DNA of 64,000 nt from Fomes fomentarius (taxonomy: Eukaryota > Basidiomycota > Agaricomycetes > Polyporales > Polyporaceae), in assembly GCA_022606135.1 (NCBI GenBank), contig JABYQN010000006.1, positions 310,001 to 374,000 of the forward strand, written 5' to 3'. The position numbers were made by a program, and so were the translations under genes. Of the stretch, positions 20,641 through 56,689 are shown piece after piece; the stretch's first letter is position 1; every line of letters begins with the position of its first letter. The notes beneath the pieces are model-generated. The model was not told the DNA's origin. It saw only the letters and a list, made by a program, of their open reading frames with translations, and made no database searches.

Positions 20641-21922
20641 ATGTCTACCAGGATGTACGACAACTTGGCCACCTCGTCTTCCGACTCCATGTTCTCCTTC
20701 TCGTTCCCGTACAACGGGTACGGATACGACGGGTGAGTCTCCTTACCTGCACTCATTCAAGTCTGACGGTCGTGCTGACTCTCTCTGGTCTCGGTCTAGG
20801 TACGTCCACCCGCAACAGCCTTCTCACTCCCAGGCGTCCGCTCAAGTTCTGAGCGGGCCGCAGTCTCAAGAGTTGGCGGGATTCGAGGACCTGCTTAACC
20901 CGACCTTCCAGTACGCCGACCCCGCTGACTGGAATACCGGTCTTCATACCCAGTCCGGCTTCGATTTCCCGTTGGGCCTCGGCTTCGGTAACATGGATAT
21001 AGGCGTTGAGGGCTGGAACGATGTCCCGGCCGCGCCAGCCGCTGCGATCATGGATGAGGCGACCCGGGCGTGGCAGGCTCAGGAGCGCATGCTCCAGGAG
21101 CTTATGGGGCCAATATCCACGGGCGGACCGTGCTCCATTGACTTCGGATTCGATACGGAGTTGTTGACGAGCGAATCGCCTGCCACCATCCCCTCCCGGC
21201 CTTCGTCTGCGGGCTCCGCAGCGACGTCGTCCTCCTCTGGCGTCTCCTCTTCATCTGGAGCGTCGTCCTCGTCCCGCGGGAAGAAGCGCAGGCGGTCTAC
21301 TGCCGAGAGGGACTCACCCTCTTCCTCTTCCTCTTCCCGTTCCCCCTCTGCTTTCTCGGGAGACGCGCCCTCTGAAGCCTCCTCCCCCGAAGACTCGTCC
21401 TCGCTTCCCAGGAAGAAGCACAAACTCTCTGACGCTCCGCGAGAGTTCACCATCGACACTCGACCTCTGTGGCGGCAGGTGGACCCAGAGGACCCCAGGG
21501 ACATAAGGGAGGAGCCGGTCCGGGATCGGCCAATCGTCAGAGACCGCCGGGTGCTCGCCCAGGGCCACGTCTATGTGAGTCGTGTGCACTGGGACTCCCA
21601 GCCGCCGACGTGGAATGGGGAGGTCATTCCGAAGATGCCGATCGACGACGTCTGGCCGTACCTGCTCGCCAAGTACAGGGTGGGGAAGATGACCCAGTGC
21701 CACATGGACGGGTGCACCAAGGATCATGGAAAGAAGAAGGGGTGGCTCAAGAATCATATCTTGGGTGCAAGTCATCTGCATGTGCGCACGCTGTGCGAGA
21801 AGTGTGGCTATAGGTGTCGTTCGGACAACTTCGATGAGAGGCATGCGAAGCAGGAATGTGAAGCGGCACTGCCATGGGAGCGTCAGGTGAGACCCAAGGC
21901 CAGACGCAGGCGTGCTGATTGA
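20641..21922 (+). CDS. Zinc-module family member A (two-finger protein, novel family)
   Basis: Two exons, 20641-20732 and 20800-21922, phase 2 junction, 404 residues. The N-terminal half is low complexity (a Y/G/F-rich start, then S/P-rich). It includes a basic patch GKKRRR near residue 215, a likely nuclear localisation signal. The C-terminal ~110 residues form the family module. It opens with HWDSQPPTWNGEVIPKM, then finger 1 with C-x4-C (CHMDGC) and H-x5-H (HILGASH), then finger 2 with C-x2-C (CEKCG) and RSDNFDERH-x4-C. Zinc binding is inferred from the Cys/His spacing. The first member of a same-strand array reaching to 39.0 kb, and closest to truncated member E. DNA or RNA binding is a guess; no known family name could be attached. 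Confidence 0.85.
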
Positions 21923-24719
21923 CCCTCGCCCTGCTGGTGGCAATGATGGCGAGGAGGATTTGAAGTCTTGTTTGGCTATTATCTGAAGCTGGTGTATAGT
22001 ATCGTGCAACATCCGTCTTGTCTCCGTTTCCATTCTCGTATATGGTCTATGCTCTATGTTGACATCATGTCTTGTATAATACCCCGATCTTGTGCACAAG
22101 TTTACATACCCATTGTCTCCGTTACCAGTTGTATACTCCATGACATCCGTTACCCATAGTACATAATCGATGTATGACTCTCTGTCCTTGTCCGTCACCT
22201 TTAATGTTGCTTGCACTTCTGGTAAGTCGAGGCCGGTCAATCTCCTGTGTTACATTTTCCACGATTTCGCCGAATCCCAAACGAACCCAGACGGCTCGCA
22301 TGCAACCTGCGACGATCAACGGCGCGACGAGGAGCATCAAGACGGCGACGGGGCTGAGTCCGCCGTCCGGACCTGGCAACCAGAAGCGGTTAAGTCCAGG
22401 CGCCTGGTGCCGGCCCGGAGAGAAGCCTGCAAAGGCCCAGACCGTGCGCCACCGCCACGAGGGTTAGGACTGGGCGCTGTCCAGAACAGGCAGGAGGTTG
22501 ACGTGTACGTCGTCGCGCGTCCAAACTCTATAGACCCTGCGATGCCAGAATTTCGCCCAAAGTTGCAACCTTGCCCAAACCACTCCTGTTCCCGCGCTGT
22601 TTTCCTGTCCAATGACCAATACATGTTCGATCTTCCCGGAACGTGGGGCCTCCTGGATGCCCCGAGTTCAAGTCTTTGATGACCCCGCCGAGCCGCTTCG
22701 TTAGCCGTTACGAGGGAGGGTTGCCAGTCGATCATCTTGGTGTGGTTTCGGTGCACATGGTGAGTGCGGTTTAGCTCAATTTTGTTCCCAAGACTGACGC
22801 GCGACTGTCGGGAACGCGCTCCTTGCCGAGGGCCAGACGCGCCAATGTCCCATTCAGCGACATGCATGGCCGCAACAGAACGTGAACAGCGCGCACTGGT
22901 CTCCATATGCCACTTTGAGGATCGCGCTGTGGCCACCGAAAGACTCGTGTGTGGCGGTGGCTCTATACAACAAGCGATAAGCGTCTTTGTGGCAAGTGAG
23001 TTGGGAGGTCGTCGTAGGGATCCTTAATGGCTGCGTAACCTATCCTTCAAATTAACCAATTCACAACCTCTCAGGAGTGTTGCGCCACATACACGGTGGC
23101 GGAACTTACTTGAGAGGGCAAACCTCGTGCAGACACACGTAAGTCAGCCATCAAACTCCTTATTCAGCGTGTGCGTTACTCACCGACCTCAAAATTAGGT
23201 TCAAAGATTCAGTTTACCCATAAAGTAGAGTGAGTGCTTTGGTTTCGATGGCGGCAAGGTATGTGCATATCTAGTCTGCGCCCGTAGTAGTACTCTCAAT
23301 CCTCTCATGCTCAGAGATGGAACACGGACACGTGCGAGTCGAGTCTTACCTAATGACAGGGGGAGTGCAGGATGGTCTGCCATAGAAGGGCGTCGCGGAT
23401 GTTTGCAGGGCGGTATAGTTCGTTTCTTGCCATCTCCTCGACATGATGACAGGACGAACACCCCCCCCCGTTTCATCCGAGGCAGACTTGCCCACAGTTC
23501 ATTCGCCAAAGTCGCTTGTGTCTGTGGCGGCGCGGATGAATCCACGAACAGAGCAGACGAATCCAGACGACGAGAGCCAAACAACGACAGGCGATGGTAT
23601 GTCGTACAATGTGAATTCAGACTGATAAAAGACTTTTCGCAAGGAGAAATTCGACAATGTACAACCGAAAGCCCAGAAGAGAGTGCACTTCATGGTCGCA
23701 TCCGCCCACGATGATACTTTGCGCGAGCGACGACCTCTGTTCCAATTGTAGGGACGACGATTACCATCCCAGGGGAGAAGCGGAACTTCGATTCCACACA
23801 GGGCCCCGGCGGCCGAAACGCGCAAAACGAACCCCAAGCCGATGCGGCATGGGGGGTAGGGGCGCCACTTAGGGGACATGAGGAGGGGATGGCGCGATCG
23901 AACGATGCGTGGCATCGGGGCGTTTAAGGGGAGGTGGTTGGAACTTGGAAGATAGCTGATAACCTCACGTCACGACGTTTTTGCCCGGGACGGAGATTTT
24001 CACTTTCGCCCCTTTAGGTAGTTGATGTTCTCCGAAAACATCGCCACTTCTTGTATACTGTTGATTAGCCGAGAACGGCGTTGCGTTGCTACGGGTGGAT
24101 GTGGAGAAACGGAGAACATGGGACTCCGGACGAGACTTTGTAAGCCATTGTTCCTCAGCATGAACTCCAGGAAGTCTGCCCTTAACCTCGGCCGCACTTG
24201 GCAATTTTGATCTTTGATGCGAGCAAAAAGTTTTTATCTCCGACGCCTCGTTGCACCGGCGAGTTGTTACCACACTTACCATATATGGCAAGATACGAGA
24301 GGCCCAACGTGACCATCTTGTTCTTTTCAACAAACCAACACCACCGACCCATCTGAGCCCCATTCCGTCCCCTCTGTGGCATTCATTTGGCCTCATTCTG
24401 AGAATCAGCTTTGACAGGGAGTGTCTTCATCTCCCTTTCAGTGCTGCTCGCCACGCTCAGCCGTGACACATCGATAACCACAGTAGACGCCCGGCAAGGT
24501 GCGTCTGCTTTGTGTTTTGCGCTGGCAACGTGTGAGACGCGTTTGGCGCATCTTTCGCTTCCACACCTCCTTGACTTCATTACTCACGTCGTTTGTGGAC
24601 AGCCTGGGAACGAATTGGCCTATCGGAGAGATCCGGCAAGGAGAGGATATATAGAGCGCAGGCCTTAACCACCAGGTCGCCACTCTCTCCCCGCGTTGCT
24701 AACCAGCCAAATCCTCACC
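21923..24719. other. Long intergenic stretch in the zinc-module array
   Basis: Nearly 2.8 kb with no gene I can support. A minus-strand hydrophobic frame at about 22450-22240 (LSPVAVLMLLVAPLIVAG) has no clear start or partners. A run of nine or more C lies at about 23461-23470. Other frames are short and frame-inconsistent. The final ~80 nt are the promoter of member B. Confidence 0.45.
24648..24654 (+). promoter_or_regulatory. TATA box of zinc-module gene B
   Basis: TATATAG lies 66 nt upstream of the ATG at 24720, with a C/T-rich leader between them. Confidence 0.6.
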
Positions 24720-26824
24720 ATGCGTGCTGGAAAGAACCTTCCCCGTGCTAAAAGTGATGCAAGCTCACGAAACGGCACTTCCGATGGCAACAAAGGCCTC
24801 CCGGTGGCGGGAACGAGGAACAATCTCTCTTCGGAATCAGACGACGATAACGTGAGACAACAACTTGCGCTCTCTCCGTGAGTCATCGGTGGTTTCAGCT
24901 CGAGAAACCTGTCTTATTCGAGTTACGTAGTGCTAGCAGAAGGACCAGGTCTCGTTCAACCACTGCGCACAGGCAGGTGGGTCGTCGGCGGAACGGATTA
25001 ACCGTCGGCCCGGGTAGCGACAGTGATAACCGTGGCTCAGAGTTGGAGCACGACCATCTCAGGCAGACGAGGTTCGTGTGACGTGGAGGGTACGTGGTGC
25101 GGAGGTTAACTCGACGTTCCCAGCTCTACACGGAATGGTGTTCGCCGTGCCGGCACGGACTCCCCGGCGGCGACGCCCGTGAGATCTGCGAACCAGACAC
25201 CGGGCCCCGCCACCTCCTCGAGCGAGGGCGTGTCCCGACAGCCGAATGGGATGGATGTGGACTCTGAGGGGTGAGTGGAGGGTGGGTTTTGTGTTCGCGC
25301 ACTCGCTAATCTCGCTTCAGCGATGACCCGGTTCGGCGTTCTTCGGACGAGAGACCCGAACGCGGGCCTGATGCTCGTTCAAGTGACACTCGTGCGACTG
25401 AAGCTGGTGTGCTCGACGAACCATTCAAAATTGCGTTCATACCGTGCCACACGTTCCCTCCGTGTGCGGTGTGCGCTGGCATCGCTGGGCAACCTGCTCC
25501 CAAAGTGGCCGTTTCAAGCTTCATGGTAACTCGCCACAAACAACTTGCTCTTGCTCGCGAGGCCGCGCGTAACGCTCCTGTCATTCGTCCAATGGGTAAT
25601 GGTGCCAACATGAATGCCAATATTCCGCCAACCTTGCGCCCGCCTCCCCTCGCGCGACCCTCTGATCCATCTGTACGTCCGGAGTTCGTTCCGCCACCGC
25701 TCAGTCCGCCACCTATGCCCTACGACCCGCCTCCTGCGCATTCGTCCCGCCCGACAGAGAACACTCGCTCAGAAGCCTCGATTGCGCCTCGGACTGCTTA
25801 TCCTGCGAGTGTATATCCACCTCCTCCTTCGAGCTACCCTATGGAACCTTTGTTCGTCTCAGCGGGCGTTGCGCCCCAGGGCGGACGTACAGCTACGACC
25901 GTGTATCAACGAGGCGCTATGGGCCAAGTTGCTACTGCGGGCATGCATCCACCACCGAGCACGTCGGTGCAGCATGTCATACGACAGGTGACACTCTCCT
26001 CGGTGTCTGCGCACGTCCGCCACAGCCCTTACGTTCGGCCACAGCGCACCCCGCAACAGGCGCAACAGCAGCCATCGTCGTCGTCACTCAGGATCGAGGA
26101 CATACGCACGCCTCAAAACGCGAGCGGGCCGCGGCTGCGCGGGCGCGGGAAGCAACGATCGAAGAAGGTGCGCGCGAAGAGGTATAACCGCAAGAAGCGC
26201 GAGGAGTGGCCGCCTGAGGGGTGGAATCCCATCTGGGAGGAGGAACGCCCGCGGAGGTGGGAGGGATACGATCTCCCGGACGACGTCCCCACGGACAAGG
26301 TGTACGAGCACCTTCGCAGGAAGTTCGACCTCAAGTCAATGGGCCACTGCAAGTGGGAGGGATGCATCCCGACTGACGCGTCGAAGGATGGATACAAGAT
26401 GCTGAAGCGCCACGTCGAGACTGTGCACCTTGGCCTCAAGTTGGTTTGCAGACTGTGTGGCGTCCGGAAGCGCGCGGATAACCGCAGGAAGGCTACGCAT
26501 AAGCGTGGGTGCCCTGAGCGCGAGGACGGAACTATCGCCATGCCGCCTGAAGAGGGTGGTGCCAGCACTAGCACGGCTACTCAAACGAACTTTGCTGATC
26601 CGTCGCAGCAGCCAACGATTGATGCGGAGGGAGATACGCAGATGGTGGACGACATGGCTAATAACGACGATGGGGAACATGATGGCGACGAGGAGGGCTC
26701 AGGCTCGGGTGAGGAAGAAGATGAACTAGAGGAGGACGAGCTGGAGGAGGATCAATATGGCGACGAGCAAGAGGGTATCCCAGATCACGCGATGGAATCC
26801 GAGTTCGAATCCGAGGACGACTAG
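24720..26824 (+). CDS. Zinc-module family member B
   Basis: Four exons, 24720-24877, 24931-25071, 25124-25270 and 25321-26824. All three introns are phase 2 and the model gives 649 residues. It has a long disordered N-terminus rich in R/S/P, with an isolated CxxC segment (FPPCAVCAG) near residue 195. A long P/S/A-rich middle follows, then a basic patch (RGRGKQRSKKVRAKR). The family module starts at about residue 475: RRWEGYDLPDDVP lead-in, finger 1 CKWEGC with HVETVH, finger 2 CRLCG with RADN and H-x3-C. The protein ends in a ~90-residue acidic D/E tail, unlike the other members. Architecture suggests a nuclear regulator or chromatin protein, but this is inference. Confidence 0.85.
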
Positions 26825-27906
26825 ATTCCGGGCGGGATGGATACACGCTGCTCCAACGACGCTATGAAATTGTCAAATAGTCTGATGTACGAATGGTGCT
26901 GATAGCTTTTATCTATGCCTCGCTATGTAAGGAGCTGCACCCAGGACCGTCTTTGAGGCCAGGTTCCGTGCCAGCGTCTGCTCGACGTGACACGCGAAGC
27001 CCGTTACGGCGTTACTCGTGCACGTGCGCTCCACATGGGATCATGCTGACAGTACGGAACTCCACGGAGAACTCCATTTCCGGTGCCACTGGTTCGAGGA
27101 ATCGTCTCTTCCACTGGCTCCCAACATGCACTAGGACGTATAAGAACTTTTCGATCTTGACTCAAATACAGCTATGTTCTGCAGAAGTGTAACAGCATTG
27201 CCAAGATGTCACTACCCATACTTACTATAAGTACCAGCAGACCGTCCCGCAAGCTGCCGGTCTAAGCATCAGGATGATCTGGTTGTGGGGAGCGATACCC
27301 GCTATTCATGTTGACTGTGCGCAATCAGGCTAACAAGGTGTGTTATATCACAATCATATACGTAGTGCGTATGCGTTCCTCACTACTCATCACTAGCTCA
27401 CCACGCAGCGATTACCGTCTCCCGGGCTACGAGTGGAATATGAAATGGTCAGGCTATGGGCCTTGAAGTTTCTTGCGTCAGCAGTACGCCAAATGATTGT
27501 CATAATCCCCGCGAAAACAGGACACCTTTGCCTTCCGGTGGTAGCAGTGGTACTTGCTCAGCGCTCAGGGCTGGCCGGTCGACCAACGTGGCCTACGATA
27601 ACGCAGCTTCATGTATGACTAAAACCTCACACGTTTCAGTGCATTCTTGGTTTGTGGTGACTGTGCCGCTTTGGTTTGTCCCTCACGCTTTGACCAGACA
27701 CAACGCCACCGGAAACAGCTCCGCTATGGTTGCGGCTGACGCGTGTGGTGACATTGTGGCCAGTATAAATAGCCATGGTTTTTGTTGTCTCCTTCTCCAT
27801 TCATAACCAAGACTCAACAACTACTGCGAATCGTAGCCACACATCTAGTACATCTCACGCTGTCGCGCGGATCTTGCCTCGTCTTCTGCTACTTCGCTCA
27901 ACACCA
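26825..27906. other. Intergenic between members B and C
   Basis: The 3' region of B followed by the 5' region of C. No gene, repeat or RNA gene was recognised in this 1.1 kb apart from the TATA element of C. Confidence 0.5.
27764..27770 (+). promoter_or_regulatory. TATA box of zinc-module gene C
   Basis: TATAAAT lies 137 nt upstream of the ATG at 27907, just 3' of a GTGGCCAG context. Confidence 0.6.
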
Positions 27907-29470
27907 ATGGCTTCCTCATCTCAGTCCGTCGCAAACGAGAACATGCTCGTTCACGGTCACTCGAACCATCACCCCAACATCGACAACGCCCAGGCGCAAG
28001 CGTGAGTATTCCGTTTGAACTTGTGCGTATAGTAAAGGCTAACCACACCGCGCAGTCGAACTCACGGAGCACCTACAACTCCGGCTTGGAGATTCTCCGG
28101 AGGCGCAACCGCGTCGAGTGCATGCAATGATTCTCAAATGCAAGACTTTCCACAAGGAGCGATCGGCCAAGAGAGTGTTCAGGGAACATCCGGAAGGTGA
28201 GTGGCTCGCCTTGGTCCTCGACCTTTATGCGCATCTGACACACCAGTGGCAATGTCTATGATATACAGTCACCTGCAACCTCGCTCTGCAATCAAGATCG
28301 CACACCCTTCAACGGGTTCGGCTCAGGGGAGGTCCGGACTGACAGGTGCGTTCGGCGCATTTCGTCCTCCGGAAGCCACGCCTGGCCGACCTCGGGGACC
28401 TCCATATCTATGGCAGATACGTCAACCTGGAGATCCAAAGTTCTCGCGGAACCCGTTGCGCAGAGGGAAGAAATCATCGGAGGACAGTGAATCCGATGAC
28501 GACACTCCAATCAGACCCGGACGTCGTCCCACCAGAGTCAAGAGAGTGGTTACAGATGCGGCTCCTGGAGGAGCCGTATCCAACTCGGATAAGAAAGATC
28601 TAGCATCAGGACAAAGTCGATCGTTGTGAGTTGCTATCAAATTGATCGCCGCCGTACTCGCTCATACAGACTAAATACAGGTACCATCCTCCCTCCGCTC
28701 CCTCTCTTCCCTCTGCTACCTCTGCTACCTCTGCTACCTCTGTTCCATCTCTTCCTCCTACTCCCTCTCCTCGTTCTCTTCCTGTTCTTCCTTCTGCTCC
28801 TTCTCTTCCAGCTCCGGCTCCGGCTCCAGCTCCCTCTGCTCCTTCTCCTCCTTCTCCTTCTCCTCCCTCTGCTCCCTCTGCTCCCTCCTCCCACGCTCCT
28901 CCCCCTCTTCCGCGCGGTCGAAAAATCGCACGTGCCACGCCTTCGCACGACGGAATTGCGTGCACATCGGGGAACACGAATGTACGCGCGTCGGGGCCCT
29001 CACGCAGACGCGAAGATTCCGCGGCCATGAGCGTCACAAAATCGCGCACGAAAGAGAAGCTCTCTGCAGATCGCTCTGCCCGCATCCAGGAGAGAGCCGA
29101 AATATCGACTCGGAACGCCGGGGGTCGGACGAGGGCCTGGAATCGCAACACCGGCCGAGGGGATTTTCCTCCCGAGGGTTTCGAAGTGTTGCAAGTTAAA
29201 GTCGACCTCGAATCGCGGGTCTGGGACGACTACCTCGTACCCCAGTGCATCCCGCAACACGAGGTATATCCGCACATCCAAACCAAGTTTGCCCTCGGAG
29301 GCGGGGGCGTGTGCCGGTGGAAGCGATGCAAGGCGGGATACCAGACGAACTTCCGCCGACATGTCGAGTCGGTGCATCTTCTTCTCAAGTTCAAGTGCTT
29401 GAGATGTGGTGCACGGCTCCGTGCAGACCATTGGAGAGACCATAATAAACAGAAACACCGAGGCGATTGA
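27907..29470 (+). CDS. Zinc-module family member C
   Basis: Four exons, 27907-28001, 28056-28196, 28269-28625 and 28681-29470. All introns are phase 2 and the model gives 460 residues. For exon 3 the ACAG at 28265-28268 is the only acceptor tested that keeps the frame open. The N-terminus is disordered with a basic RPGRRPTRVKR patch. Exon 4 opens with an S/A/P-rich tract encoded by imperfect CCTCTGCTA-type repeats. The C-terminal module has an aberrant lead-in (VWDDYLVPQCIP) but keeps finger 1 (CRWKRC, HVESVH) and finger 2 (CLRCG, RADHWRDH, ending in H rather than C). The protein stops two residues after the last module residues (KHRGD). It is a diverged but open member of the array. Confidence 0.8.
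28685..28920 (+). repeat. Low-complexity CT-rich coding repeat in member C
   Basis: Tandem-like repeats of CCTCTGCTA and CTCCTTCTC units encode a run of P, S, A, T and L. The opposite strand is an almost pure G/A tract. This is a simple-sequence expansion inside an exon, and a likely length-variable site between strains. Confidence 0.7.
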
Positions 29471-32850: not shown

Positions 32851-33992
32851 ATGACCCGGCCGGTCGCATATATGTGAGTACTGTTCGTCTTTGACCACGC
32901 GCCGAACACTGAACACTGGACGCGCCCCAGCCTCGTCGAGGAGTCATACCCCTCCCTCTCCGACGCCATACTTGGTGTGGAAGAGCAGCTTCTCGCAAAT
33001 GAGACACGCTTTGCGGAAGATCATGCGCATATAATCGATGAAGTTGCTCCTGGGCCTGAGTACGTCGCTGCCTGACTTGACCGCTCCCTGCAGATTTACT
33101 CACCCTGGTTATATCCCAATCAGTCCGTTCGCATTGATGTCATGTCGTTCGTTTGATTCTACCGCGACTACGACCTCGTGAGTCCTGTCAGGCTTTTCTG
33201 TAATGAGCATACCCCTCAATTGCTCCTAGTTCCTCGAGTACGATTCCCAGCGCACCTGCCGCCGTGGTGGATGAGAACACGTCCTCTACTGGCGATTCCG
33301 TAGCGATATCCTCAGCTGCGGTGTCGGGACGCGCTACCTCCGGTCATCCTCTCGCACCGCTAGACACAAATCTCCCTCCATGCTCCTTCTCCTTTTCGGC
33401 TTCATCCCCTTCGATCTCGAAGAGATCTCATGATGCATTTGACAATCACTCTGCCAGCGACTACGCGGACGTTTGGGCTACAAGGAATGCGCGAACGCAG
33501 GCGATGAATATACCCGAGGATGCTAGCGAATCCACGACACGGGACGGAGATGAGGACGGCATGGAGAGCGACGATGACGACGATGGAGCAGTTGGGAACG
33601 ATGAAGGTCGTGAAGACGACGATCGTGAATCGACTGGGCGCAGCGATGCGGACGAGGCAGAAGATACGAGCGGAGCGGACAATGTCGTGGACAACGGAGA
33701 CGGCACCCTCACTACCCACAGCATCGACTGGACCACCAATCCACCGAGGTGGCATGGGCGCACGATCCCTCTAATGGACCCCAAGAATATTCCTAACTGG
33801 ATCTCCGCTAATTTCGAGCCATACTCGCGGATCACAGTGTGCGGACTGGATGGTTGCGGGGGTAGATTCGGGATGGGCGCGTTGAAGAATCATATGTACA
33901 GCATGAGCCACTTCAACTATCGGAGGAAGTGCTCGAGCTGCAAATGGTCGACGCGGGCTGACAACTTCAGCGGTAGGCACCGCTGCCAATAG
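32851..33992 (+). CDS. Zinc-module family member D
   Basis: Four exons, 32851-32873, 32931-33059, 33094-33177 and 33230-33992, all three introns in phase 2, 332 residues. Exon 2 encodes a short amphipathic helix (SLSDAILGVEEQLLANETRF) ending in APGPE, closely matched in member F. An S/A-rich stretch and a strongly acidic D/E segment follow. The C-terminal module is complete: IDWTTNPPRWHGRTIPLM lead-in, finger 1 CGLDGC with HMYSMSH, finger 2 CSSCK with TRADNFSGRHRC, ending at the last cysteine plus one residue. This is the most compact complete example of the module. Confidence 0.85.
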
Positions 33993-34920: not shown

Positions 34921-35645
34921 TTTCCTCTCATCCAATCGTCCTCTCGCTCACTCGAAGTCGCCTCGTGTCGCTCGCTCACCTCAGCTTATACCTCATAGAA
35001 CATAGAACGTTCGAGCCAAGTCTTGTCTACCAGGATGTACGACAACTTGACCGCTTCGTCCTCCGACTCGATGTTCTCCTTCTCGTTTCCGTATAACGGG
35101 TACGGATACGACGGGTGAGTCTCCTTAACTGCACTCCTTTAAGTCCGACGGTTGTGCTGACTCTCTCTGGTCTCGGTCTAGGTATGTACACCCGCAGCAG
35201 CCTTCTCACTCCCAGGCGTCCGCTCAAGTTCTGAGCGGGCCGCAGCCTCAAGAGCTGGCGGGGCTCGAGGACCTGCTTAACCCGACCTTCCAGTACGCCG
35301 ACCCCACTGTTTGGAATAACGAGTTCGTCGATTTCAACACCCCGTTGGGCCTCGGTAACATGGATATAGGCGTTGAGGGCTGGAACGATGTCCCGGCCGC
35401 GCCAGCCGCTGCGATCATGGATGAGGCGAGCCGGGCGTGGCAGGCTCAGGAGCGCATGCTCCAGGAGCTTATGGGGCCATTAACCACGGGCGGACCGTGC
35501 TCGATAGACTTCGGATTCGATATGGAGCTGTCGGCGAGTGAGCCGCCTGCCACTTCACCCTCCCGGCCTTCGTCTGCTGGCTCTGCAGCGGCGTCCTCTT
35601 CCTCTCGTGTATCCTCTTCATCTGGAGAGTCGTCTGCGTCCCGTC
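34920..35645 (+). repeat. Segmental duplicate of member A (leader to mid exon 2)
   Basis: From about 34920 (TCTCATCCAATCGTCCTCTC) to about 35645 the sequence closely matches 20545-21280, including leader, intron 1 and the first half of exon 2. A small deletion removes the second GFG motif region. Similarity stops abruptly after CGTCCCG. A's TATA element is not included. Confidence 0.8.
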
Positions 35646-35674
35646 GCCCAGAGAATCCATTTGACATCACGTAG
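35035..35674 (+). pseudogene. Zinc-module family member E, truncated copy of A
   Basis: Two exons, 35035-35114 and 35182-35674, phase 2, 190 residues. A's first ATG is TTG here, so translation would start four codons later at MYDNL. The protein follows A closely through the S-rich region, then ends in nine or so unrelated residues (RPENPFDIT) and a stop, where the duplication breaks. The whole zinc module and the basic patch are missing. If expressed, it would be a module-less fragment; more likely it is a dead partial copy. Confidence 0.75.
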
Positions 35675-36554: not shown

Positions 36555-37439
36555 ATGTCTGCTCCCTACATGTGAGTAGTCCTGCGCTCTGTACCGTCAA
36601 CTGCGTCGTTTCGAACTCATCCTTCCTGCCACAGTGTCGTCGATGAGCCGTTCGACAGCCTCGCCGAGGCTATCGACGACCTCAAGGACCAGCTCCTCAG
36701 CAATGAGGGCCGCTACATGGAGGACCTATTGTCCTCAGTGGATCAGGCTGCACCGGGCCCAGAGTACGTCTCTCATTCTCGTCCCCATCATCCACCGCCA
36801 CTTACCAAGGAGCTCGTAGTCCCTTCGTGGCCGCGCCTCTGGGGTCGTCAGACGCAGAAGGCACGGAGGACGACCCGATGTCCATAAAAGGCAATGCACA
36901 AGCATCCTCGTCGGCCGCGACGCGATCGTCTGCGGATCCAGGTGAATGCGACTCAGTCTCTTACCGCCACGACACAGACGATCTGACACAGCAGCCGGTA
37001 CTCTCCAAGGGCAAAAGAAAGCGCGAGGCCGAGGACGTGGTCGAGGACGTGGCCGAGGACGCGCCTCCCGCCAAGCGGGCCGCGGTCGCGGTCGCGGCGG
37101 GCAATAAGGAGAACCTGCAGTACCCCGGCGAGATCGAGGAACTGGACGACATCGACTGGGAGCACACCGCGCCGACGTGGGCGGGTGAGCCGATCCCTCG
37201 GATGTCGGGAAAGGATGTTCTATGTTATCTGAGGAGGAGGTATGGGTTCAACGACACCAGGGACGCGGTCAGGTGCAGGATCGACGGGTGCAAGGAGACG
37301 GAGAGGGAGCCACCTGCAGGGAAAGACGCACTTCAACATCAAGAAGAGGTGTACACGATGTGGGTTCTCCGGTTCCGTTGCGAGAGCGAGGCGCTTTCAT
37401 TCACATCCTGGGGGTCGGTGCTCCTTCAACACTCCATAG
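36555..37439 (+). pseudogene. Zinc-module family member F, frameshifted in the finger region
   Basis: Exons 36555-36571, 36635-36763 and from 36820, all phase 2. Exon 2 encodes the helix FDSLAEAIDDLKDQLLSNEG ending in APGPE, as in D. Exon 3 gives an acidic/basic linker with a KGKRKRE patch, then a well-kept lead-in (DIDWEHTAPTWAGEPIPRM), YLRRRYGF and the first half of finger 1 (CRIDGC). Near 37290-37315 the frame shifts by one base: finger-like sequence continues in another frame (HFNIKKRCTRCGFSG, ending at a stop about 37439). The original frame stays open by chance for another ~230 codons to 38011. Most likely a recent pseudogene; a sequencing error at one base is the alternative. Confidence 0.7.
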
Positions 37440-37911: not shown

Positions 37912-39019
37912 ATGTCCTACAACTACGACACCATCTTCGACGCTTTTGCTCCCCTGTCTCCGTAAGCCTAACCACCATCCCGACTCCCCCTCCCGACGCG
38001 ACACAATCTAACCCTTCCCTGCCACAGATCCTCCCGCACCGACACCGCGCTGTCGGACTTCATCGAAGAGTTGCCTCGCGGGTGAGCACGATAGGATGAC
38101 GTTCGGCGAAGGAACGTACGATGGGATGGAGGACAATGGGGCCAGGTACGTGCTCCGCCTTCGGTCTCCGACACCAACGGTCTCCCTAACCAAACGATGC
38201 AGCAGCTCGGAGTGGGCCTACTGATCCCACTACATCGCCGTCCGCCGTGGCACCTCCGACGGGCCTCCCTTTTCCTGAGCTGCCGGCCATCTGGCCAGCG
38301 GCGTTCGCGCAACCATGGACCGGGGAGGACATCGCCACCCAGTTCATCCCACCATTCAGCCCCTCCATTCCCCTTGGTGAGTTGGAAGACCCTATCGAGG
38401 TCTTCACCCGTATGATCACGATATCCCCCACCACGGACACGCACCCCGCAGCCATGCCCACTTTCTCGTCAGGCTTTGCGACGGACTTCTTCGCGTTCAG
38501 CGCGGCTCCTTCTCCTTCGTACACCTTCCCTGCCTTCCCCGTCATTCCCGACGACTATCTATATCAGCAAGCCGACCCTGTGCCCGCGCCACTACCACCC
38601 GAGCCCGCCGTCGGTGCTGCTCCTCCTACTCTTGTCCTGCCCGATGTCATCGGCAGTCTCGTCTGGGAATCTCCCGACACCGTCAAGACCTACATCTGGG
38701 ACGGCTATCAGCTCCCGCCCATGCCTGTCATTGGCGCTATCTGAGGGTTGAGTTCCGAGTCCTCGAAACCTCGGTTGGGAAAGATGACAAAGACAGGTCG
38801 TTGCATCGCTGTCTGTGGCCGGATTGCCACCACGATGACATGCTAAGGGACAACCTCCGGAAGCATGTCCAGACGGTCCACCAGAAGCTGAAGAAGCGGT
38901 GTGAGAACCCCGGATGCATGTTCACCGAACGCTCGGATATGTTCAACACGCGGCATAGGAACTGTCCGCATGGTGCTCCGGGCGTTCGTCCTGAGGGCGT
39001 TATGCTTGCTCCGTACTAG
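37912..39019 (+). pseudogene. Zinc-module family member G, pseudogene close to H and I
   Basis: Exon 1 (37912-37961, MSYNYDTIFDAFAPLSP) matches members H and I. Several lesions follow. One extra C near 38077 shifts the frame in the helix exon. Missing bases after GSEWA near 38218 create TGA. Indels at about 38733-38755 remove the segment before finger 1 and end the frame at ...PVIGAI. The finger region itself (38801-39019) is still open and well kept: CLWPDCHH, HVQTVH, CENPGC and SDMFNTRH. No TATA element is visible upstream, unlike H and I. An older, non-functional copy of the same subfamily. Confidence 0.8.
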
Positions 39020-43580: not shown

Positions 43581-44556
43581 ATGACGAGCGTATCCCAAGA
43601 GGGATTGGTCAGAAAGTGCATATACCTTATGAACGAACTAAGATACTAATGAGTTGGCGTTGTAGCTTCCATCGTGGGCAGAGATCTCGCACCTATCTGA
43701 CGAGGAACTCTGGAAGATTTTTCAGACGTCAGACAAATTTCCCTCTTCCCCACTGAACACAGTCAACGTTCGACGTATCGCCACCGATGCTGTCATGAGA
43801 GTTGGCCCTGCGGTTCACGAATCCGAGGTCCTCACTATGCGTCTCGTTAGCCAGGCTTCATCCATACCTATACCCGCCATTCGACGAGTCGTCTATTTGG
43901 GAGGTTCACGAGCAATTATCATGGACTACATTCCAGGAAAGACCCTCGACAGTTGTTGGTCGAGGCTCAGTTTCTGGCGGCGACTTCGTATCATCTGGAC
44001 ACTTCGCGGCTACGTCAGACAGTTGCGACGCATTCAGGTTCCCAGTGCGCTGCGAAGCACGATGTTCCCTGGTCCTATCGCAAGCCAACCACAGGTCTGC
44101 TACGGCTCGATGTTCACCGAATATGTATGTTCCCTCTTTAGACTACATCTTCGCGCACAAGCGCCTACGACTTGACTGTATCAGGGTGCAGGTCCGTTTG
44201 CATCCTATGAAGAACTCACGGCCTGGTATATGCACAAGCTCGACGTCAACCGCCGCATCAGAAAGTACCCCCCCGGACCAATGACGTTTGACGCTTCGCT
44301 GCCGCTGGTGCTGACCCATCTTGACATCCATCCGGGCAATATCATTGTGGGTGATGACGACCGGGTGTGGTTGATTGATTGGGAACTCGCAGGATTCTAC
44401 CCACAGTGGTTTGAATATGCGGGCATGGTGGAAGGATGGATTATTCTTGGGCGATGGGAGCGGTTAGTCCTGGGCTTTGTGGCTGGTTTCTACGAACGGC
44501 AGCTTCAGTTTATTGCCAGTGTTGGATGGGCCCTGAACACTGGTGTACTCCTATGA
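43581..44556 (+). CDS. APH-family phosphotransferase-like protein
   Basis: Three exons, 43581-43607, 43666-44124 and 44185-44556, all phase 0, giving 285 residues. The protein-kinase-like fold of the aminoglycoside/choline phosphotransferase family (PF01636) is recognisable. IRRVVYLGGSRAIIMDYIPG is the hinge region, LVLTHLDIHPGNIIV the Brenner-type catalytic loop with H-x-D-x4-N, and VWLIDWELAG the metal-binding Asp. The closing segment is a helical YERQLQFIASVGW. Such genes are numerous in mushrooms and are not evidence of antibiotic resistance; substrates are unknown. It lies 80 nt upstream of the P450 gene on the same strand. Confidence 0.85.
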
Positions 44557-44636
44557 CATATGTTGTTCTCTGTCCTACTGGAGAACTTCATCTCGTAGAA
44601 TCATCGCATAGTCCGAGCGTATATGTCCGTCGGCTC

Positions 44637-47098: not shown

Positions 47099-47335
47099 AT
47101 GTGTGTTGGGTTGTATCTTATTCTTTTGTGCTGGTCCCTAGACGGACGGGTTGCGTTTGATGATTGGATGGCGTCTTGATACTCGACTCATCATGCTGTA
47201 GTGCGCGGATAGTGTATGTATGCTTCTCGCAATTGGACTATCGAGGATGTGCACTACACGACCAGACTGCAGCGACGATGGAGCTTAGTGGCGCAATTCA
47301 TATGAACGTAACACGGTCATGAAGTCAACTGTGCA

Positions 47336-48823
47336 CTACACCGTGGGCAAGTCAAGACCAATGTCATCGCGCAGTAACCGCTCGGTGGTCTCCCACAGCT
47401 CCGTCCACAGCTCCTTCCTCTCTACAAGACGGCTGGTCCTGTCAATCGCGCACGACGGTGAGAGGTAGGCTCCGCGGTACTTGATGGGCTCGGCGCGGGG
47501 GATGGGAGAGGCTGCACAGAAAATCGTCCCGAGGGCACCAGAGGCGGGAGACGCGAATGTCAGGCGAGCGATTAGGCGATAGAGAGGTCCGAGGATGGGG
47601 CCGACGGATTCGGTGTACGCGTGCACACCCTCTGCAAAGATCACGTTTGGGGGAGTATCATTTGTGATTAGGGAAGGGATGAGACTGGCTTGCAGGGGAG
47701 GGAGGAGGGCGCACCAGTCTGGACTCGACCCGGATCGGTTGAGATGCAGAGGATTGGGACACCGGCGTCGTCGAATCGGCGTTGCAGTTCTTGCATGAAC
47801 ATGAGCTGCATCGTCTTGGAGAAGGCTGCGAGGGCAGAACAGTCAGCGCAAGCGATTGCGTATGAGTGTGAGGGCCGTCATCGTCTCGGAGCGCGCGCAC
47901 CGTAGCGGAGGTACTGGGGCGACGTGGTGTCGGCGAAGTCCCGGTTGAGGTCGTCGATGTTGCGGAAGCGGACGTCGGAAGGGCAGAACTTGTGGCTGAA
48001 GAATATATCGGCATTATGATCATGTGGAGTGACCATGAAGCGGGCCTGAGCAGGGAAACGTACGACTTGCTGTTGACGGCGATGACCCGAACGTCGCTGT
48101 TGGGCTCTTGCGCAGTCCGCTTCAAAATCGGAAGGAGAGCCCGAGTGAGTAGATAGGTGCCGATGTAACTGTTGTTGAATTGCATGTCAAGACTGAACCG
48201 TATTCAACGAGTGCAGGGATCCACTCACTTCACCATCACGATGTTCTGGATATTGTCGTGGTCCTTGGCGTAGGGCACCAACAACCTATGATCTGATGGG
48301 TCAGCCATCTTGTTCAGGTTATAGCCCTTGCGTTCTGCAGTACTCACACTGCTGCGTTGTTGACTACAATGTGCCATCACTTGTCAATCGATCGACCATC
48401 CACAAGCCAGATGCTGATACCCACCCAATACATCTAGGCGTTCTTCTCCCTGCATGAACTCTTCCGCGGCAGCTACGACCTTCCGCGGATCACTCAAGTC
48501 AAGGCTCAGCCATACGACTTCGCCATTACCCGGCCCGAGCCCTTCTGCGTGCAGACGTACAATAGCGGCTCGAGCTTTCTTCTCGTCGCGGGCACCCATG
48601 TAGACTTTCGCGCCATGACGGGCGAGCCGTTGTATGGCCGCAAATCCCACACCGGAGCTGTAGTAAAATTCCATATGTATGTTAGCGAATATGCGTCACG
48701 GTGTACCCGCGGGGCGTGTGTGTGTACCTACTTTCCTCCGGTGACGAGGATGACCTTGCCCGACATATCCGCTGGGATGTCGGTGTCTGGGTTGAATGAT
48801 CCACGGGAGAAAAAGGACCCCAT
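47336..48823 (-). CDS. Short-chain dehydrogenase/reductase
   Basis: Start ATG at 48823 (MGSFFSRGSFNPDTDIP), a lead common in fungal retinol-dehydrogenase-like SDRs. VTGGNSGVGFAAIQ is formed across the first intron and gives the TGxxxGxG NADP-binding motif. LDLSDPRKV, VLVNNA (across an intron) and DVRVIAVNSKSYV follow in order. The catalytic YxxxK is YAFSK, again across an intron (near 47905/47825), then STDPGRVQTG. The C-terminal part ends at 47336. All core motifs of a classical SDR are intact. It converges on the P450 gene with 237 nt between the stop codons. Confidence 0.88.
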
Positions 48824-49706: not shown

Positions 49707-51329
49707 ATGTACGCCCGGAGCCGCGCGGACCATACGCGCATCACCAGCTTCCTAACGCGTAAGTATACTCAGTTTCTGGAATAAACTATGTAGATCCAGC
49801 CTTTGGATGAATAACAAACCTACCACGTGTTCTTCTCATGTGGGTGAGGCTCAATCTTTCATGAACTGGTGCTTGGGAACGTCACACACTGCGGATCTTC
49901 GACTCGCATCCCGGGTCATTGGACATCATGTTGCGACGCTTCGTGAAATGAAGCCTACGCCACGCACTACGATGTTCCTCGCAGTTACACTGCATCACAT
50001 ACGCTGAACAAAGCATTCACTCTCTCAATGTCCCACTCCCTCAGGGACGCTGTCTTATCCTGGGCGGCTTGCGAGCATTCCTGTGCGCGTGAAGAACACG
50101 CGTCAGTAGCGGGTCACTCGTGCCGCTAATTTGTGTCGTGACCGGCTTCTGACAACTAAACCAGTGATCCTTATGGGCACCATTTGGGCGCCCGTCTAAA
50201 TCTTAGCCACACCCAGGTTGATAGTCGACTTTTCGGGAATAGTTTTTATCTCTCGATATCTCATTGGAGAAGTGCTCTGATCATCACCCATAGTCACTAT
50301 CTCTTCTCTGGGTAAGTGCTTATATTAATTGTCAGGCACTCATTGATTACTTGGTGATCGGGACTGCGCTGATGTGTGAGTGCGAGCTACCTCCCTCTAT
50401 CGCTCGCTCGCTCAGAGGCATTCTCAGACATCAACAACGTTGGCGCAATATCACAAGCACTGTTCGCGTTCAACAACCCCGACTACGATGAACGACAAGC
50501 TGCTCAATGGCAAGCCACCCAAGTATCCACCGTCAGCATCATGAACTGTCTCGGACGCATCAGCATCGGTACGCTGTGTCCGGTTCCTCCTCGATGGTCT
50601 TTTTTTCATGCCTTGATCGGCGCAGGTATCATCGCGGACTTCACAAAGAGCCGACTGGGCCTCCCGCGCTCCTTCTGCGCAATCATAGTCGCGACCCTAT
50701 TTAACATCTCCCAAATCACCTATTTCTTCATCGAGGACATCTCCAACCTATGGAAGGCCAGTGCCCTGCTCGGTCTTGCATACGGTGGGCTGTTTGGGCT
50801 GTTCCCCACGCTCGTCATCGAGTGGTTCGGACTCCGTGAGTATACATGCTCCCTCTATCGATACCTAACTACTGACCGTCGACCGACAGAGCACTTTTCC
50901 GAGAACTGGGGCTTCGTCTCGCTCTCGCCCATGCTCGGCGGGAACGTCTTCTCGATCGCATTCGGGCGCAACCTTGACTCACACGAAGACCCAGACCCCA
51001 CACCTTCCGCGGCCGACACCACCCTCCTCGCTACTGCAGCCACCGCGCTGTCCACCATCCTGCCTTCTTCCAATTCCCCTTCCACCCGTTCACTCTCGGC
51101 CTCGGTTGTCGCGACAGACGTCACACGCGCAGGGATACCGTCTCCGCACCACTGCATCATCGGGCGCGCGTGCTACGTCGACAGCCTGCAGATGACGATC
51201 GCGGCGTGCTGCGTTGCGCTTGCACTGGGCGTGTATGCAAGCTGGCGCGACTTGCGGAAGCAGCGGCGCTGGGCGAGTCGTTATGCTGCCGAGACGCCTG
51301 CGGTGGTGATTTGGGAGAGTGAGGAGTAA
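49707..51329 (+). pseudogene. MFS transporter pseudogene (left arm copy)
   Basis: A diverged copy of the complete gene at 57094-59727. The first-exon region (ATG 49707), the long first introns and the LGARLNLSHTQV exon are all recognisable. The sequence then jumps from the end of the following intron (CACCCATAG, near 50290) straight to TCACTATCTCTTCTCTG, deleting the exons for most of the N-terminal membrane helices. Downstream exons are largely open (INNVGAISQALFAFNNPDYD, then FTKSRLGLPRSFCAII, HFSENWGFVSLSPMLGG), ending at 51329. No functional transporter can be made. Confidence 0.85.
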
Positions 51330-51735
51330 CGAGCGTAGCGTAGCGTTCTAGGCGATTTTGAGCCTTGATACTTACGGGTCGTGGTTACGGGTCGCTTTTG
51401 TCGGTCTCAAATGACGGTCTTTTTGATTGTGTATAACCAAGATGGAGGTATAGATGTGGTAATTATGCGTCTTAAGGTACATGGTTAGAATGTGATTGGG
51501 ATGGATACATGCTAGTGAGACGAGCGAGACAGAAAAGTGAGGTATAACGAGGTGTGAGGTATAGCGGGACTGATGCGGGGTATAGATAGTGAGGCGATTG
51601 CAATGCATAGAAAGAGACTGGTGGTGCGGTATGAGATGGAATGGTGTGATAGGATGACTTGAGAAACATGGGAATAAACAATGACGAGACCTGACAAGAG
51701 AAAGTGAAGCAAACACGGAGCCTTACCACATACTA

Positions 51736-52897
51736 CTAGTACGGAGCAAGCACAGGAACGCCCTTAGGACGAACCCCCGGAGCACCATGCGGGCAGTCCC
51801 TATGCCGCGTTTTGAACATATCCGAGCGTTCGGTGAACATGCACCCGGGGTTCTCACATCGCCTCTTCAGCTTCTGGTGGACGGTCTGGACATGCTTCCG
51901 GAGGTTGTCCCTCAGTATGCGATCGTGGTGACAACCCGGCCACAGACAGCGATGCAAGGTCTTGCCTTTGTGATCTGTCCCAACCGATGTTTCGAGGACT
52001 TTGACCACACCCATCAGATGGTTCCAAAGGAGGATGGCAGGCATGGGCGGGAGCTGGCAGCCGTCCCAGATATAGGTCTTGACGGTGTCGGGAGATTCCC
52101 AGACGAGACTGCCGATGACATCGGGCAGGACAAGAGTGGGAGTACCGGCACCGACGGCGTGGGCGGGGGCAGGGGCAGGGGCGGGAGCGAGGGCGAGGAC
52201 GGGTGGTAGTGGGGCGGGGACAGGGTCGGCTTGCGGATAGAAGTAGTGGTCAGGAGCGGCAGGGAAGGTAGGAAAGGTGTATGGAGACGGAGCGGCGCTG
52301 AACGCGAAGAAGTCCGTCGCAAAGCCTGACGAGAAAGTGGGCATGGTTGCGGGGTGCGTGTACGTGGTGGGGGTTATCGTGATCATACGGGTTAAGAAGT
52401 CGATAGGGTCTTCTAACTCACCAAGGGCAATGGAGGGGCTGAGCGGAGGGATGAACTGGTTAGCGATGTCCTCCCCGGTCGATGGTTGCGCGAACGCCGC
52501 TGGCCAGATGGCCGGCAGCTCAGGAAAAGGGAGGCCCGTCGGAGGTGCCGCGGCGGACGGCGATGTGGTGGGATCGAGCCAGTTGGCCCACTCCGAGCCG
52601 CTGCATCGTTTGGTTAGGGAGACCGTTGGTGTCGGAGACCGAAGGCGGAGCACGTACCTGGCCCCATTGTCCTCCATCCCATCGTACGTTCCTTCGCCGA
52701 ACGTCATCCTATCGTGCTCACCCGCGAGCAACTCCTCAACGAAGTCCGACAGCCCGGTGTCGGTGCGGGAGGACCTGTGGCAGAAAAGGGTTAGATGGTG
52801 TCGCGTCGGGAGTCGGAGTGGGGAGTGGGGATGGTGGTTAGGCTTACGGAGACAGGGGAGCAAAAGCGTCGAAGATGGTGTCGTAGTTGTAGGACAT
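51736..52897 (-). CDS. Zinc-module family member H (intact, left arm)
   Basis: Three exons, 52897-52848, 52774-52658 and 52600-51736, both introns phase 2, 343 residues. The protein starts MSYNYDTIFDAFAPLSP, then a helix exon (TGLSDFVEELLAGEHDRM). A P/A-rich middle of about 150 residues has an (AP)n tract, then a diverged lead-in (TYIWDGCQLPPMP). Finger 1 is CLWPGC with HVQTVH, finger 2 is CENPGC with SDMFKTRHRDC. GTGAGT...TCAG inside exon 3 (96 nt, both ends phase 1) could be an optional intron. It converges on the MFS pseudogene, with TATAAAT 109 nt upstream. The only intact member of its subfamily (G, H, I). Confidence 0.85.
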
Positions 52898-53005
52898 CTT
52901 GGCGAGTGTTCTGGAATGGAGAAGGGGTAGTAGAGTGTACGAAGAGTAGAAGAGGCGAAGAGCGAGGTGCTGAGTGCTGGAGAGCAGCGCAGAAACCATC
53001 GCGGA

Positions 53006-53012
53006 ATTTATA
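53006..53012 (-). promoter_or_regulatory. TATA box of zinc-module gene H
   Basis: TATAAAT on the minus strand, about 110 nt upstream of the ATG at 52897. One base near here differs from the matching element of copy I (an extra T in AAATTCCGCG). Confidence 0.6.
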
Positions 53013-54114
53013 TGTTGGGAGAACGGCATCCATCGAGGCCATGAGGCGGGGACAGAGTACTGGTGTGACGGTGTGCGTCCAGCACGCGGCAGTTGTCTGC
53101 ACAAAGGCGGATTCGATTCCTGGACACGTATCTGAGCGACGACTCCGTCCAGAACGCGCGATACGGGATGCACAAAGGAGCGCTTCCTTGAGCCGCGGGC
53201 CAAAGCGGTAGCTGCGTCCATGGTTGAGCTTCGGCACGCGTGCGGCAGATGCCGCACTTCATTTCCGCCATGATTTCTGTGTTTTGGGGGCCTGTCCGTG
53301 GAGGTTAAGCCTCGCGCTGATGTCCTCTCGATCGTCGGGGACCCTGGCAACCCTTCCTGGCTCTCCTCGTGGATGACAAAGGATGCGATTGTCCAAGAAA
53401 GACGCTGCGGTGCTTATCGTGGCTCTGCTCAGCTTTGACTATTTGATGGCTACACGCCTGGTTCGCGGTCACGCACAAAGCGGTGTGGGTCGGACAGCTT
53501 CTGGCTGATTGTTCAGCTCTTTGTGCACCGTACCGTCCTTTGGTGGCCTTCATATACAGAATGTGATGCACGTTCACGGTGACTCGAATCTGCCATATTC
53601 GTCATCGACTGAACACGGAGGATCGGCGGCAGTTGTTGCTCGCACTCACCCCACTGTAACATCACCATGTCATCCTCGTCACAGAACCTCATGATACCGC
53701 GTCAATGATGCAGTGCGTACGCATGGAAAAACCGTTCAACGGCGTACACCGTTATAGGTTAAGTTCCCGCCCCTGGCATGCAGTAAGACTAAACTGAGCT
53801 TTAGCAACGCGATAACGCTCACTCACAGCAAATTGTCATTATAATTCAATGAATCTATAAGCCTATAACAACTAAATATGTTAATGGATCAGTCGCTGAC
53901 ATCTACGAGGAAGCGTCGGATACTTGAGTACTCGCCTGCTGTGAACACCGTCGACGTACTACTAGTACATCACACTGATGAACTTCAATGACAGCCAGTT
54001 GATCCAAAACCTACTGGGATTTGTTTGATTGGCTCCCCTATGGACTAGGAGACCTGTAAGTATCGATGCGCCTACGTATGCTTTTTCACTCTCAAATTTC
54101 GAGCGCGGCGTCTG

Positions 54115-54317
54115 CCCGATTTGGAAGTGGAAGCGCCGGCGGGAGAAAATTCGGCGTGTTCGCAGAATTATGGCACGTCGCAGCGAGGTTAACATCCAAG
54201 CTACTGAGTAGTATGTGTCCGAGGGACCTCCGGTATGTATGTGCTTCGCACTCCTCAACGCTGCCTTTCTGATCGCTGAACGCTGGCGCCATGTAAGTTT
54301 GCCAGTGAGACTAAAGT
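54115..54317. other. Spacer (loop) of the inverted duplication
   Basis: A non-repeated segment of 203 nt between the two arms. No gene is visible and no long reading frame continues from either arm. Confidence 0.85.
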
Positions 54318-55419
54318 CAGACGCCGCGCTCGAAATTTGAGAGTGAAAAAGCATACGTAGGCGCATCGATACTTACAGGTCTCCTAGTCCATAGGGGAGC
54401 CAATCAAACAAATCCCAGTAGGTTTTGGATCAACTGGCTGTCATTGAAGTTCATCAGTGTGATGTACTAGTAGTACGTCGACGGTGTTCACAGCAGGCGA
54501 GTACTCAAGTATCCGACGCTTCCTCGTAGATGTCAGCGACTGATCCATTAACATATTTAGTTGTTATAGGCTTATAGATTCATTGAATTATAATGACAAT
54601 TTGCTGTGAGTGAGCGTTATCGCGTTGCTAAAGCTCAGTTTAGTCTTACTGCATGCCAGGGGCGGGAACTTAACCTATAACGGTGTACGCCGTTGAACGG
54701 TTTTTCCATGCGTACGCACTGCATCATTGACGCGGTATCATGAGGTTCTGTGACGAGGATGACATGGTGATGTTACAGTGGGGTGAGTGCGAGCAACAAC
54801 TGCCGCCGATCCTCCGTGTTCAGTCGATGACGAATATGGCAGATTCGAGTCACCGTGAACGTGCATCACATTCTGTATATGAAGGCCACCAAAGGACGGT
54901 ACGGTGCACAAAGAGCTGAACAATCAGCCAGAAGCTGTCCGACCCACACCGCTTTGTGCGTGACCGCGAACCAGGCGTGTAGCCATCAAATAGTCAAAGC
55001 TGAGCAGAGCCACGATAAGCACCGCAGCGTCTTTCTTGGACAATCGCATCCTTTGTCATCCACGAGGAGAGCCAGGAAGGGTTGCCAGGGTCCCCGACGA
55101 TCGAGAGGACATCAGCGCGAGGCTTAACCTCCACGGACAGGCCCCCAAAACACAGAAATCATGGCGGAAATGAAGTGCGGCATCTGCCGCACGCGTGCCG
55201 AAGCTCAACCATGGACGCAGCTACCGCTTTGGCCCGCGGCTCAAGGAAGCGCTCCTTTGTGCATCCCGTATCGCGCGTTCTGGACGGAGTCGTCGCTCAG
55301 ATACGTGTCCAGGAATCGAATCCGCCTTTGTGCAGACAACTGCCGCGTGCTGGACGCACACCGTCACACCAGTACTCTGTCCCCGCCTCATGGCCTCGAT
55401 GGATGCCGTTCTCCCAACA

Positions 55420-55426
55420 TATAAAT
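55420..55426 (+). promoter_or_regulatory. TATA box of zinc-module copy I
   Basis: TATAAAT lies 115 nt upstream of the ATG at 55541, in the same place as in copy H. Confidence 0.6.
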
Positions 55427-55540
55427 CCGCGATGGTTTCTGCGCTGCTCTCCAGCACTCAGCACTCAGCACCTCGCTCTTCGCCTCTTCTACTCTTCGTA
55501 CACTCTACTACCCCTTCTCTATCCCAGAACACTCGCCAAG

Positions 55541-56689
55541 ATGTCCTACAACTACGACACCATCTTCGACGCTTTTGCTCCCCTGTCTCCGTAAGCCTAA
55601 CCACCATCCCCACTCCCCACTCCGACTCCCGACGCGACACCATCTAACCCTTTTCTGCCACAGGTCCTCCCTCACCGACACCGGGCTGTCGGACTTCGTT
55701 GAGGAGTTGCTCGCGGGTGAGCACGATAGAATGACGTTCGGCGAAGGAACGTACGATGGTATGGAGGACAATGGGGCCAGGTACGTGCTCCGCCTTCGGT
55801 CTCCGACACCAACGGTCTCCCTAACCAAACGATGCAGCGGCTCGGAGTGGGCCAACTGGCTCGATCCCACCACATCGCCGTCCGCCGCGGCACCTCCGAC
55901 GGGCCTCCCTTTTCCTGAGCTGCCGGCCATCTGGCCAGCGGCGTTCGGCCAACCATGGACCGGGGGGACATCCCCAACCAGTTCATACCACCATTCAGCC
56001 CCTTCGTTCCCATTGGTGAGTTGGAAGACCCTATCGAGGTCTTCACCCGTATGATCACGATAACCCCCACCACGTACACGCACCCCGCAACCATGCCCAC
56101 TTTCCCGTCAGGCTTTGCGACGGACTTCTTCGCGTTCAGCGCCGCTCCGTCTCCATACACCTTTCCTACCTTTCCTGCCGCTCTCGACGACTACGTCTAT
56201 CCGCAAGCCGACCCTGTCCCCGCCCCACTACCACCCGTCCCCGCTCCCGCCCCCGTCCCCGCCCCCGCCGTCGGTGCCGGTACTCCCACTCTTGTCCTGC
56301 CCGATGTCATCGGCAGTCTCGTCTGGGAATCTCCCGACACCGTCAAGACCTACATCTGGGACGGCCGCCAGCTCCCGCCCATGCCTGCCATCCTCCTTTG
56401 GAACCATCTGATGGGTGTGGTCAAAGTCCTCGAAACATCGGTTGGGACAGATCACAAAGGCAAGACCTTGCATCGCTGTCTGTGGCCGGGTTGTCACCAC
56501 AATCGCATACTGAGGGACAACCTCCGGAAGCATGTCCAGACCGTCCACCAGAAGCTGAAGAGGCGATGTGAGAACCCCGGGTGCATGTTCACGGAACGGT
56601 CGGATATGTTCAAAACGCGGCATAGGGACTGCCCGCATGGTGCTCCGGGGGTTCGTCCTAAGGGCGTTCCTGTGCTTGCTCCGTACTAG
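55541..56689 (+). pseudogene. Zinc-module family member I, single-base frameshift (right arm)
   Basis: Exons 55541-55590, 55664-55780 and from 55838, as in H. Near 55965 the G run reads GGGGGGAC where H and G have GGGGAGGAC, a one-base loss. The original frame then ends at about 56054. The remaining coding sequence (from DIPNQFIPPFSP through both fingers to ...VLAPY at 56689) stays open in the shifted frame, so the lesion is recent. Apart from this it is nearly the same protein as H, with a shorter (AP)n tract. An assembly or base-calling error is the main alternative. Confidence 0.8.

Follow-up and report, generated by a model that had tools for sequence, protein, structure and literature searches.

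A cluster of loci sharing a two-finger module

The region analysed here (the window: 64,000 nucleotides, positions 310001-374000 of contig C6) belongs to the 40.9 Mb genome, with TTAGGG repeats, of the white-rot polypore Fomes fomentarius (tinder fungus), and contains nine loci, labelled A to I, that are related through a protein module consisting of a tryptophan-containing lead-in followed by two finger-like units (Table 1). In a six-frame pattern scan, six sites of the window matched the two-finger pattern, namely those of A, B, C, G, H and I, whereas 30 base-shuffled windows contained no match; the lead-in pattern gave seven matches, compared with 0.73 per shuffled window. The fingers of D, whose last spacing is shorter than the scan pattern permits, and the first Cys pair of F were recognised by eye. 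Tandem fingers with the C2H2/C2HC-type spacing C-x2-5-C ... H-x3-6-H/C were present, finger 1 following it in A, B, C, D, H and I, and an alignment of six modules has W, P, four Cys, two His, R and D as invariant positions. Finger 2 is of the C2HC form, except in C (C2HH) and D (H-x1-C). The lead-in is predicted to form a strand-strand-helix unit without zinc ligands (structure prediction and searches with it always included adjoining sequence), and its Trp is invariant in all 16 alignment rows; finger 1 has a Trp of its own in B, C, H, I and an H-type copy on contig C8 (L025; L-numbers denote genome-search matches and P-numbers proteins from the protein search), replaced by M, L or I in A, D and F.

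The first-pass annotation of this DNA had proposed nine members and one probable relic, all with a lead-in and two fingers, seven on one strand and two in an inverted duplication. The module and the arrangement of the copies (A to G on the plus strand, H and I in the inverted duplication) are as described there; the count falls to eight loci with readable module sequence, namely A, B, C, D, H and I, together with G, which frame breaks divide, and the degraded F, as E lacks the module. The birth and death of copies that it had noted is also evident: the reading frame is open within the window in A and H (exon models), B (last exon) and C and D (single frames, read without upstream exons), E is truncated, G and I are frame-broken, and F is degraded.

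Table 1. Positions of the loci and of the inverted duplication within the window
Feature	Position	Strand	Description
A	20653..21922	+	Two-exon gene (exons 20653-20732, 20800-21922), 400 amino acids; module about 21590-21859
B	25321..26824	+	Last exon of conserved gene; module 26222-26512; acidic tail ending ESEFESEDD
C	28646..29470	+	Open frame with module; two-finger part 29312-29458; best match B
D	33207..33992	+	Open frame with module; lead-in 33729-33779; acidic N-terminal part
E	35035..35674	+	Truncated duplicate of the N-terminal part of A (exons 35035-35114, 35182-35674), without module
F	36707..37400	+	Degraded copy; lead-in 37157-37204 and first Cys pair left
G	37912..39016	+	H-type copy with three frame-breaking indels
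H	51736..52897	-	Three-exon gene (exons 52848-52897, 52658-52774, 51736-52600), 343 amino acids; open
I	55541..56689	+	H copy in the opposite arm of the inverted duplication; frame broken ahead of the module
Inverted duplication	50294..58146		Arms 50294-54114 and 54318-58146 (96.1% identical), 203-base spacer; carries H/I and transporter-like frames

Exon 1 of A was placed by similarity to the GenBank protein of E (P0015, C8Q74DRAFT_1368163, 190 amino acids); E matches the 5' part of A with 88.7% identity over 732 bases and stops ahead of the module. In B, the last exon is preceded by a canonical intron (GTGAGT...CAG, by eye) and an upstream exon ending at 25270, and further coding sequence probably lies upstream, with the ATG at 24720 as an unverified candidate start. 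A conserved basic stretch lies ahead of the B module, and 39 of the last 100 residues of B are D or E. Upstream of the B module, at 25427-25474, the sequence CHTFPPCAVC (CHTWPPCAVC in P0016) may form a small metal site. Apart from the first Cys pair, the metal ligands of F have been lost (by eye). Locus I has a one-base gap relative to H, G and the C8 copy, and its N-terminal half and module are thus in different frames; the C8 copy is intact, with three exons like H and 328 amino acids.

N-terminal parts, described as unrelated in the first-pass annotation, turned out to be shared within two groups: one by A and E, and another, with small introns, by G, H, I and the C8 copy. Both are acidic-aromatic in composition (counted without a background set: 20 D/E, 3 K/R and 19 W/F/Y in 160 residues for the A type, and 24, 3 and 26 in 210 for the H type), and A in addition has two basic patches resembling nuclear localization signals (by eye).

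Conservation of B and distribution of the family

Genome searches with seven single queries, covering the F. fomentarius genome, added one intact H-type copy (L025 on contig C8) and remoter finger proteins on contig C9 (L019/L040, L041, L038, L018, L048 and L029). Weak matches on contigs C1, C2, C4 and C11 (L034, L014, L052 and L030) were left out of the counts; the two-finger module was not found by eye in the printed frames of L034, L014 and L030, L052 being unread. The protein searches scored only those candidates sharing most 5-letter words with the query (7,989 when long candidates were allowed), the first search being limited to about 65-206 amino acids. The search allowing long candidates, in which the first query row was A at length, P0001 was used whole and the remaining rows were modules, gave 14 proteins, of which two correspond to A and E and 12 are, by our own reading, of the B type. 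Across 133 residues that include the module, identity to B was 71-95% in eight B-type protein clusters from other contigs (P0008-P0014 and P0016), and all eight retain, beyond the module, an acidic tail ending in E-[FY]-E-S-E-D-D; over the same residues, identity to B was 62% for P0001, which looks decayed, and 38%, 33%, 30% and 21% for C, H, A and D, respectively. P0007, outside this alignment, is nearly identical to B by eye. B is a conserved gene, and the other loci are diverged paralogs.

A-, C-, D- and H-type proteins were found in the F. fomentarius genome alone, an absence elsewhere that is weak evidence because of the word-sharing filter and the length limit of the first search. When viral contigs were scanned with the B-type alignment, 243 stretches fitted a pattern and none was a relative. 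A recent, lineage-specific origin of the entire family is contradicted by the B-type relatives on other contigs; the lineage specificity proposed in the first-pass annotation may apply to the A, C, D and H types within the limits of the search.

Relation to known zinc-finger kinds

A Pfam scan of A, B, C, D, H, I and their relatives gave nothing above cut-off. At E<=1, A, B and C gave no rows, D gave zf-POGZ (E 0.085), H and I gave chance-level rows only, and zf-C2H2 appeared for none of the six. The profile of the finger pair, on the other hand, aligned with fingers 2 and 3 of tandem-CWCH2 plus C2HC proteins of the same genome, with a score of 54.0 against 17.4 for the best of 100 column shuffles, and on the basis of this alignment the fingers are assigned to the C2H2/C2HC kind. 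A local profile match to the GLI fingers had an E-value of 1.3e-5, and GLI and AEBP2 were among the best PDB profile matches. The initial view that the module could not be placed in a known family holds as far as named Pfam families are concerned, but not for the fingers themselves.

Tandem-CWCH2 proteins, described by Hatayama and Aruga (2010, PMC2837044), comprise the GLI/ZIC, Zap1/ZafA, PacC and Fungl classes and contain two adjacent fingers, each with a Trp between two Cys (xCxWx(2,35)C...CxWx(1,3)C...), the two Trp building a shared hydrophobic core. This pattern, in strict and loose form, was absent from A, B, C, D, H, I, L025 and the 12 B-type proteins, and present in three of the six C9 relatives tested (P0004, which is C8Q74DRAFT_1449905, L029 and L048). 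Finger 1 of B, C, H, I and the C8 copy resembles the tandem-CWCH2 unit in reading C-x-W-x2-C and in being closely followed by another finger; however, the module has a single CWCH2 finger, the other being replaced by a lead-in without Cys ligands, and its second metal finger has no Trp. Compared with the three-finger proteins P0004, L029 and L048, the module aligns with fingers 2 and 3, including the R-x-D of the last finger, whereas those proteins, all on contig C9, keep a zinc-liganded finger 1 and have no W-x-G-x2-[IL]-P lead-in. The lead-in occupies the position of their finger 1, and is probably, on marginal evidence, a metal-free descendant of the tandem-CWCH2 finger 1. With the classical C2H2 factors KLF4, WT1, CTCF and EGR1 the likeness is a weak superposition of the modelled A finger pair on their DNA-bound finger pairs, the module differing from such factors in having no TGEKP-type linker (by eye), a C2HC second finger and no zf-C2H2 match.

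One of the C9 matches, L041 (C9:550546), shares 66% identity, in a stretch of 41 residues, with the last fingers of a C9 three-finger protein and is apparently a decayed copy, which would extend birth and death to the tandem-CWCH2 relatives. RNA-seq of F. fomentarius from 27 cultivation experiments is available (PMC11827164). Among the papers listed by literature searches on C2H2 fingers in Agaricomycetes, Polyporales and basidiomycetes, on CWCH2 and on Fomes zinc fingers and genome, titles and beginnings of abstracts gave no description of the family, and searches with module peptide strings and C8Q74DRAFT gave no match.

Selection on the paralogs

The ratio of nonsynonymous (dN) to synonymous (dS) substitution rates was estimated for two paralog pairs, B, C and D having no sufficiently close DNA relatives among the sequences available. 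Between H and the C8 copy, dS was 0.41 and dN 0.16 over 324 codons (dN/dS 0.39), with 0.37 in the N-terminal part (bootstrap 0.25-0.55), 0.43 in the module (0.24-0.78) and 0.22 in the fingers; the lead-in, with a dN/dS of 0.98 (7.5 synonymous and 23.5 other changes), was the exception to this purifying average. Between A and E, ahead of the truncation, dN/dS was 0.32 (0.18-0.53) over 177 codons. These values show that H and the C8 copy, as well as A and E, have been under past purifying selection and were, on average, held as proteins. The claim that all copies evolve fast is contradicted by these two pairs and by the near-invariance of B elsewhere.

According to one alternative, only B matters, and A, C, D and H are relics that are still open by chance. 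I, G, F and E are indeed broken, and three B-type proteins (P0001, P0002 and P0017) look decayed or truncated by eye, indicating that extra B-type copies decay elsewhere too. Nevertheless, we regard this alternative as improbable, given dN/dS well below 1 on average in both pairs (C and D being outside the comparison) and the structure of H and the C8 copy, whose exon lengths differ by multiples of three and whose intron lengths differ by 11 and 2.

In the module tree, end branches were short for the B type (0-0.13), 0.18 and 0.21 for H and the C8 copy, which share a branch of 0.9, and longer for A (0.58), C (1.63), D (1.73) and the remaining part of F (2.46). Since only 1 of 15 inner branches was well supported, the order of duplication is not settled by the tree; A, C, D, H and the others are possibly tandem offshoots of B.

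Inverted duplication and exchange between copies

The arms of the inverted duplication were 100% complementary over the 215 bases of each that fall within the scanned stretch. The junction stretch (about 54107-54172) had ten matches of 35-67 bases, spread over eight further contigs (L056), two of the matches, on contig C3, lying in the inverted ends of an element of roughly 620 bases. A transposon end at the junction may have taken part in the inverted duplication.

Tandem and inverted copies, together with this dispersed-element-like end, could also be expected if the fingers themselves were domesticated from a transposon, of BED or transposase type. Such an origin is very improbable and was rejected: the scanned proteins gave no transposase or BED match above cut-off (weak rows below it were seen for C9 relatives only), A and H have introns and regulator-like N-termini, and no such gene was seen by eye in the C3 element.

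When H and I were compared in 24 windows of 100 columns, identity was 97-100% in 22 of them, dropping to 85% in the window from 55971 and 91% in that from 56159. The divergent patches (55948-56044 and 56184-56265) contain variants partly common to G or the C8 copy; in the former, H and I differ at 18 columns, where G has the variant of I in 10 cases and that of H in 8. The patches may come from exchange with another copy. Transporter-like frames (MFS-like by eye) are repeated in inverted orientation at 49735-51326 and 57097-59675, of which the frame 50373-51326 gave no Pfam match; an outer stretch is only 72% alike, and duplication or exchange may have been stepwise.

Proposed function

We consider it moderately probable that the cluster consists of a conserved nuclear DNA-binding protein, B, and diverged transcription-factor paralogs, and that its products are DNA-binding regulators overall. 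The proteins would be nuclear, bind DNA sequence-specifically and regulate transcription. Of the three finger-like units in their C-terminal module, the lead-in would be a strand-strand-helix without metal, followed by a C2H2 finger of the GLI kind and then by a C2HC finger. Both of these fingers would bind zinc and contact DNA, and the lead-in would cap the pair by packing its invariant Trp against finger 1, much as the first finger of a tandem-CWCH2 unit packs against the second. The acidic-aromatic N-termini of the A and H types would recruit the transcription machinery and activate transcription; B differs from them in its basic stretch and acidic tail and may act in another way, for instance as a factor bound to chromatin. 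The paralogs would have multiplied by tandem and inverted duplication and been pruned by truncation and frame breaks.

Alternatively, the module could serve to bind protein or RNA, as part of factors acting in chromatin or RNA processing, rather than to read DNA, with B as a scaffold and the paralogs as decoys or adaptors. For the first tandem-CWCH2 finger of GLI1, which makes no DNA contact, a protein-binding role has been proposed (PMC2837044). The B module is near-invariant over about 100 residues, beyond what would be expected of a two-finger DNA reader, its finger 2 is atypical and its C-terminus is strongly acidic, all of which favours this alternative. Even so, we find this alternative rather unlikely, as the finger pair aligns with a CWCH2 finger followed by a C2HC finger whose helix opens with R-x-D, which is typical of fungal fingers that read DNA, and A and H resemble activators.

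As a more specific and tentative version of the DNA-binding reading, which we hold to be possible rather than probable, finger 1 of a GLI-like tandem-CWCH2 unit may have become a metal-free cap in a conserved fungal lineage, and the resulting three-unit DNA reader may have seeded a cluster of activators that diverged by duplication and patchwork exchange, the parent remaining nearly frozen. If true, a finger that has lost its metal yet stayed in place would indicate how zinc-finger arrays can shed zinc. The cluster would also illustrate, on a small scale, how a single member of a transcription-factor family can stay fixed as others drift. B itself is conserved but has neither a name nor a Pfam domain match, and genes of this kind, here with some 100 near-invariant module residues, often have basic roles.

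Neighbouring genes

Between the two groups of loci, at 43666-48700, where two frames scanned as single exons gave no Pfam match, kinase-like, P450-like and short-chain dehydrogenase-like frames were recognised by eye.
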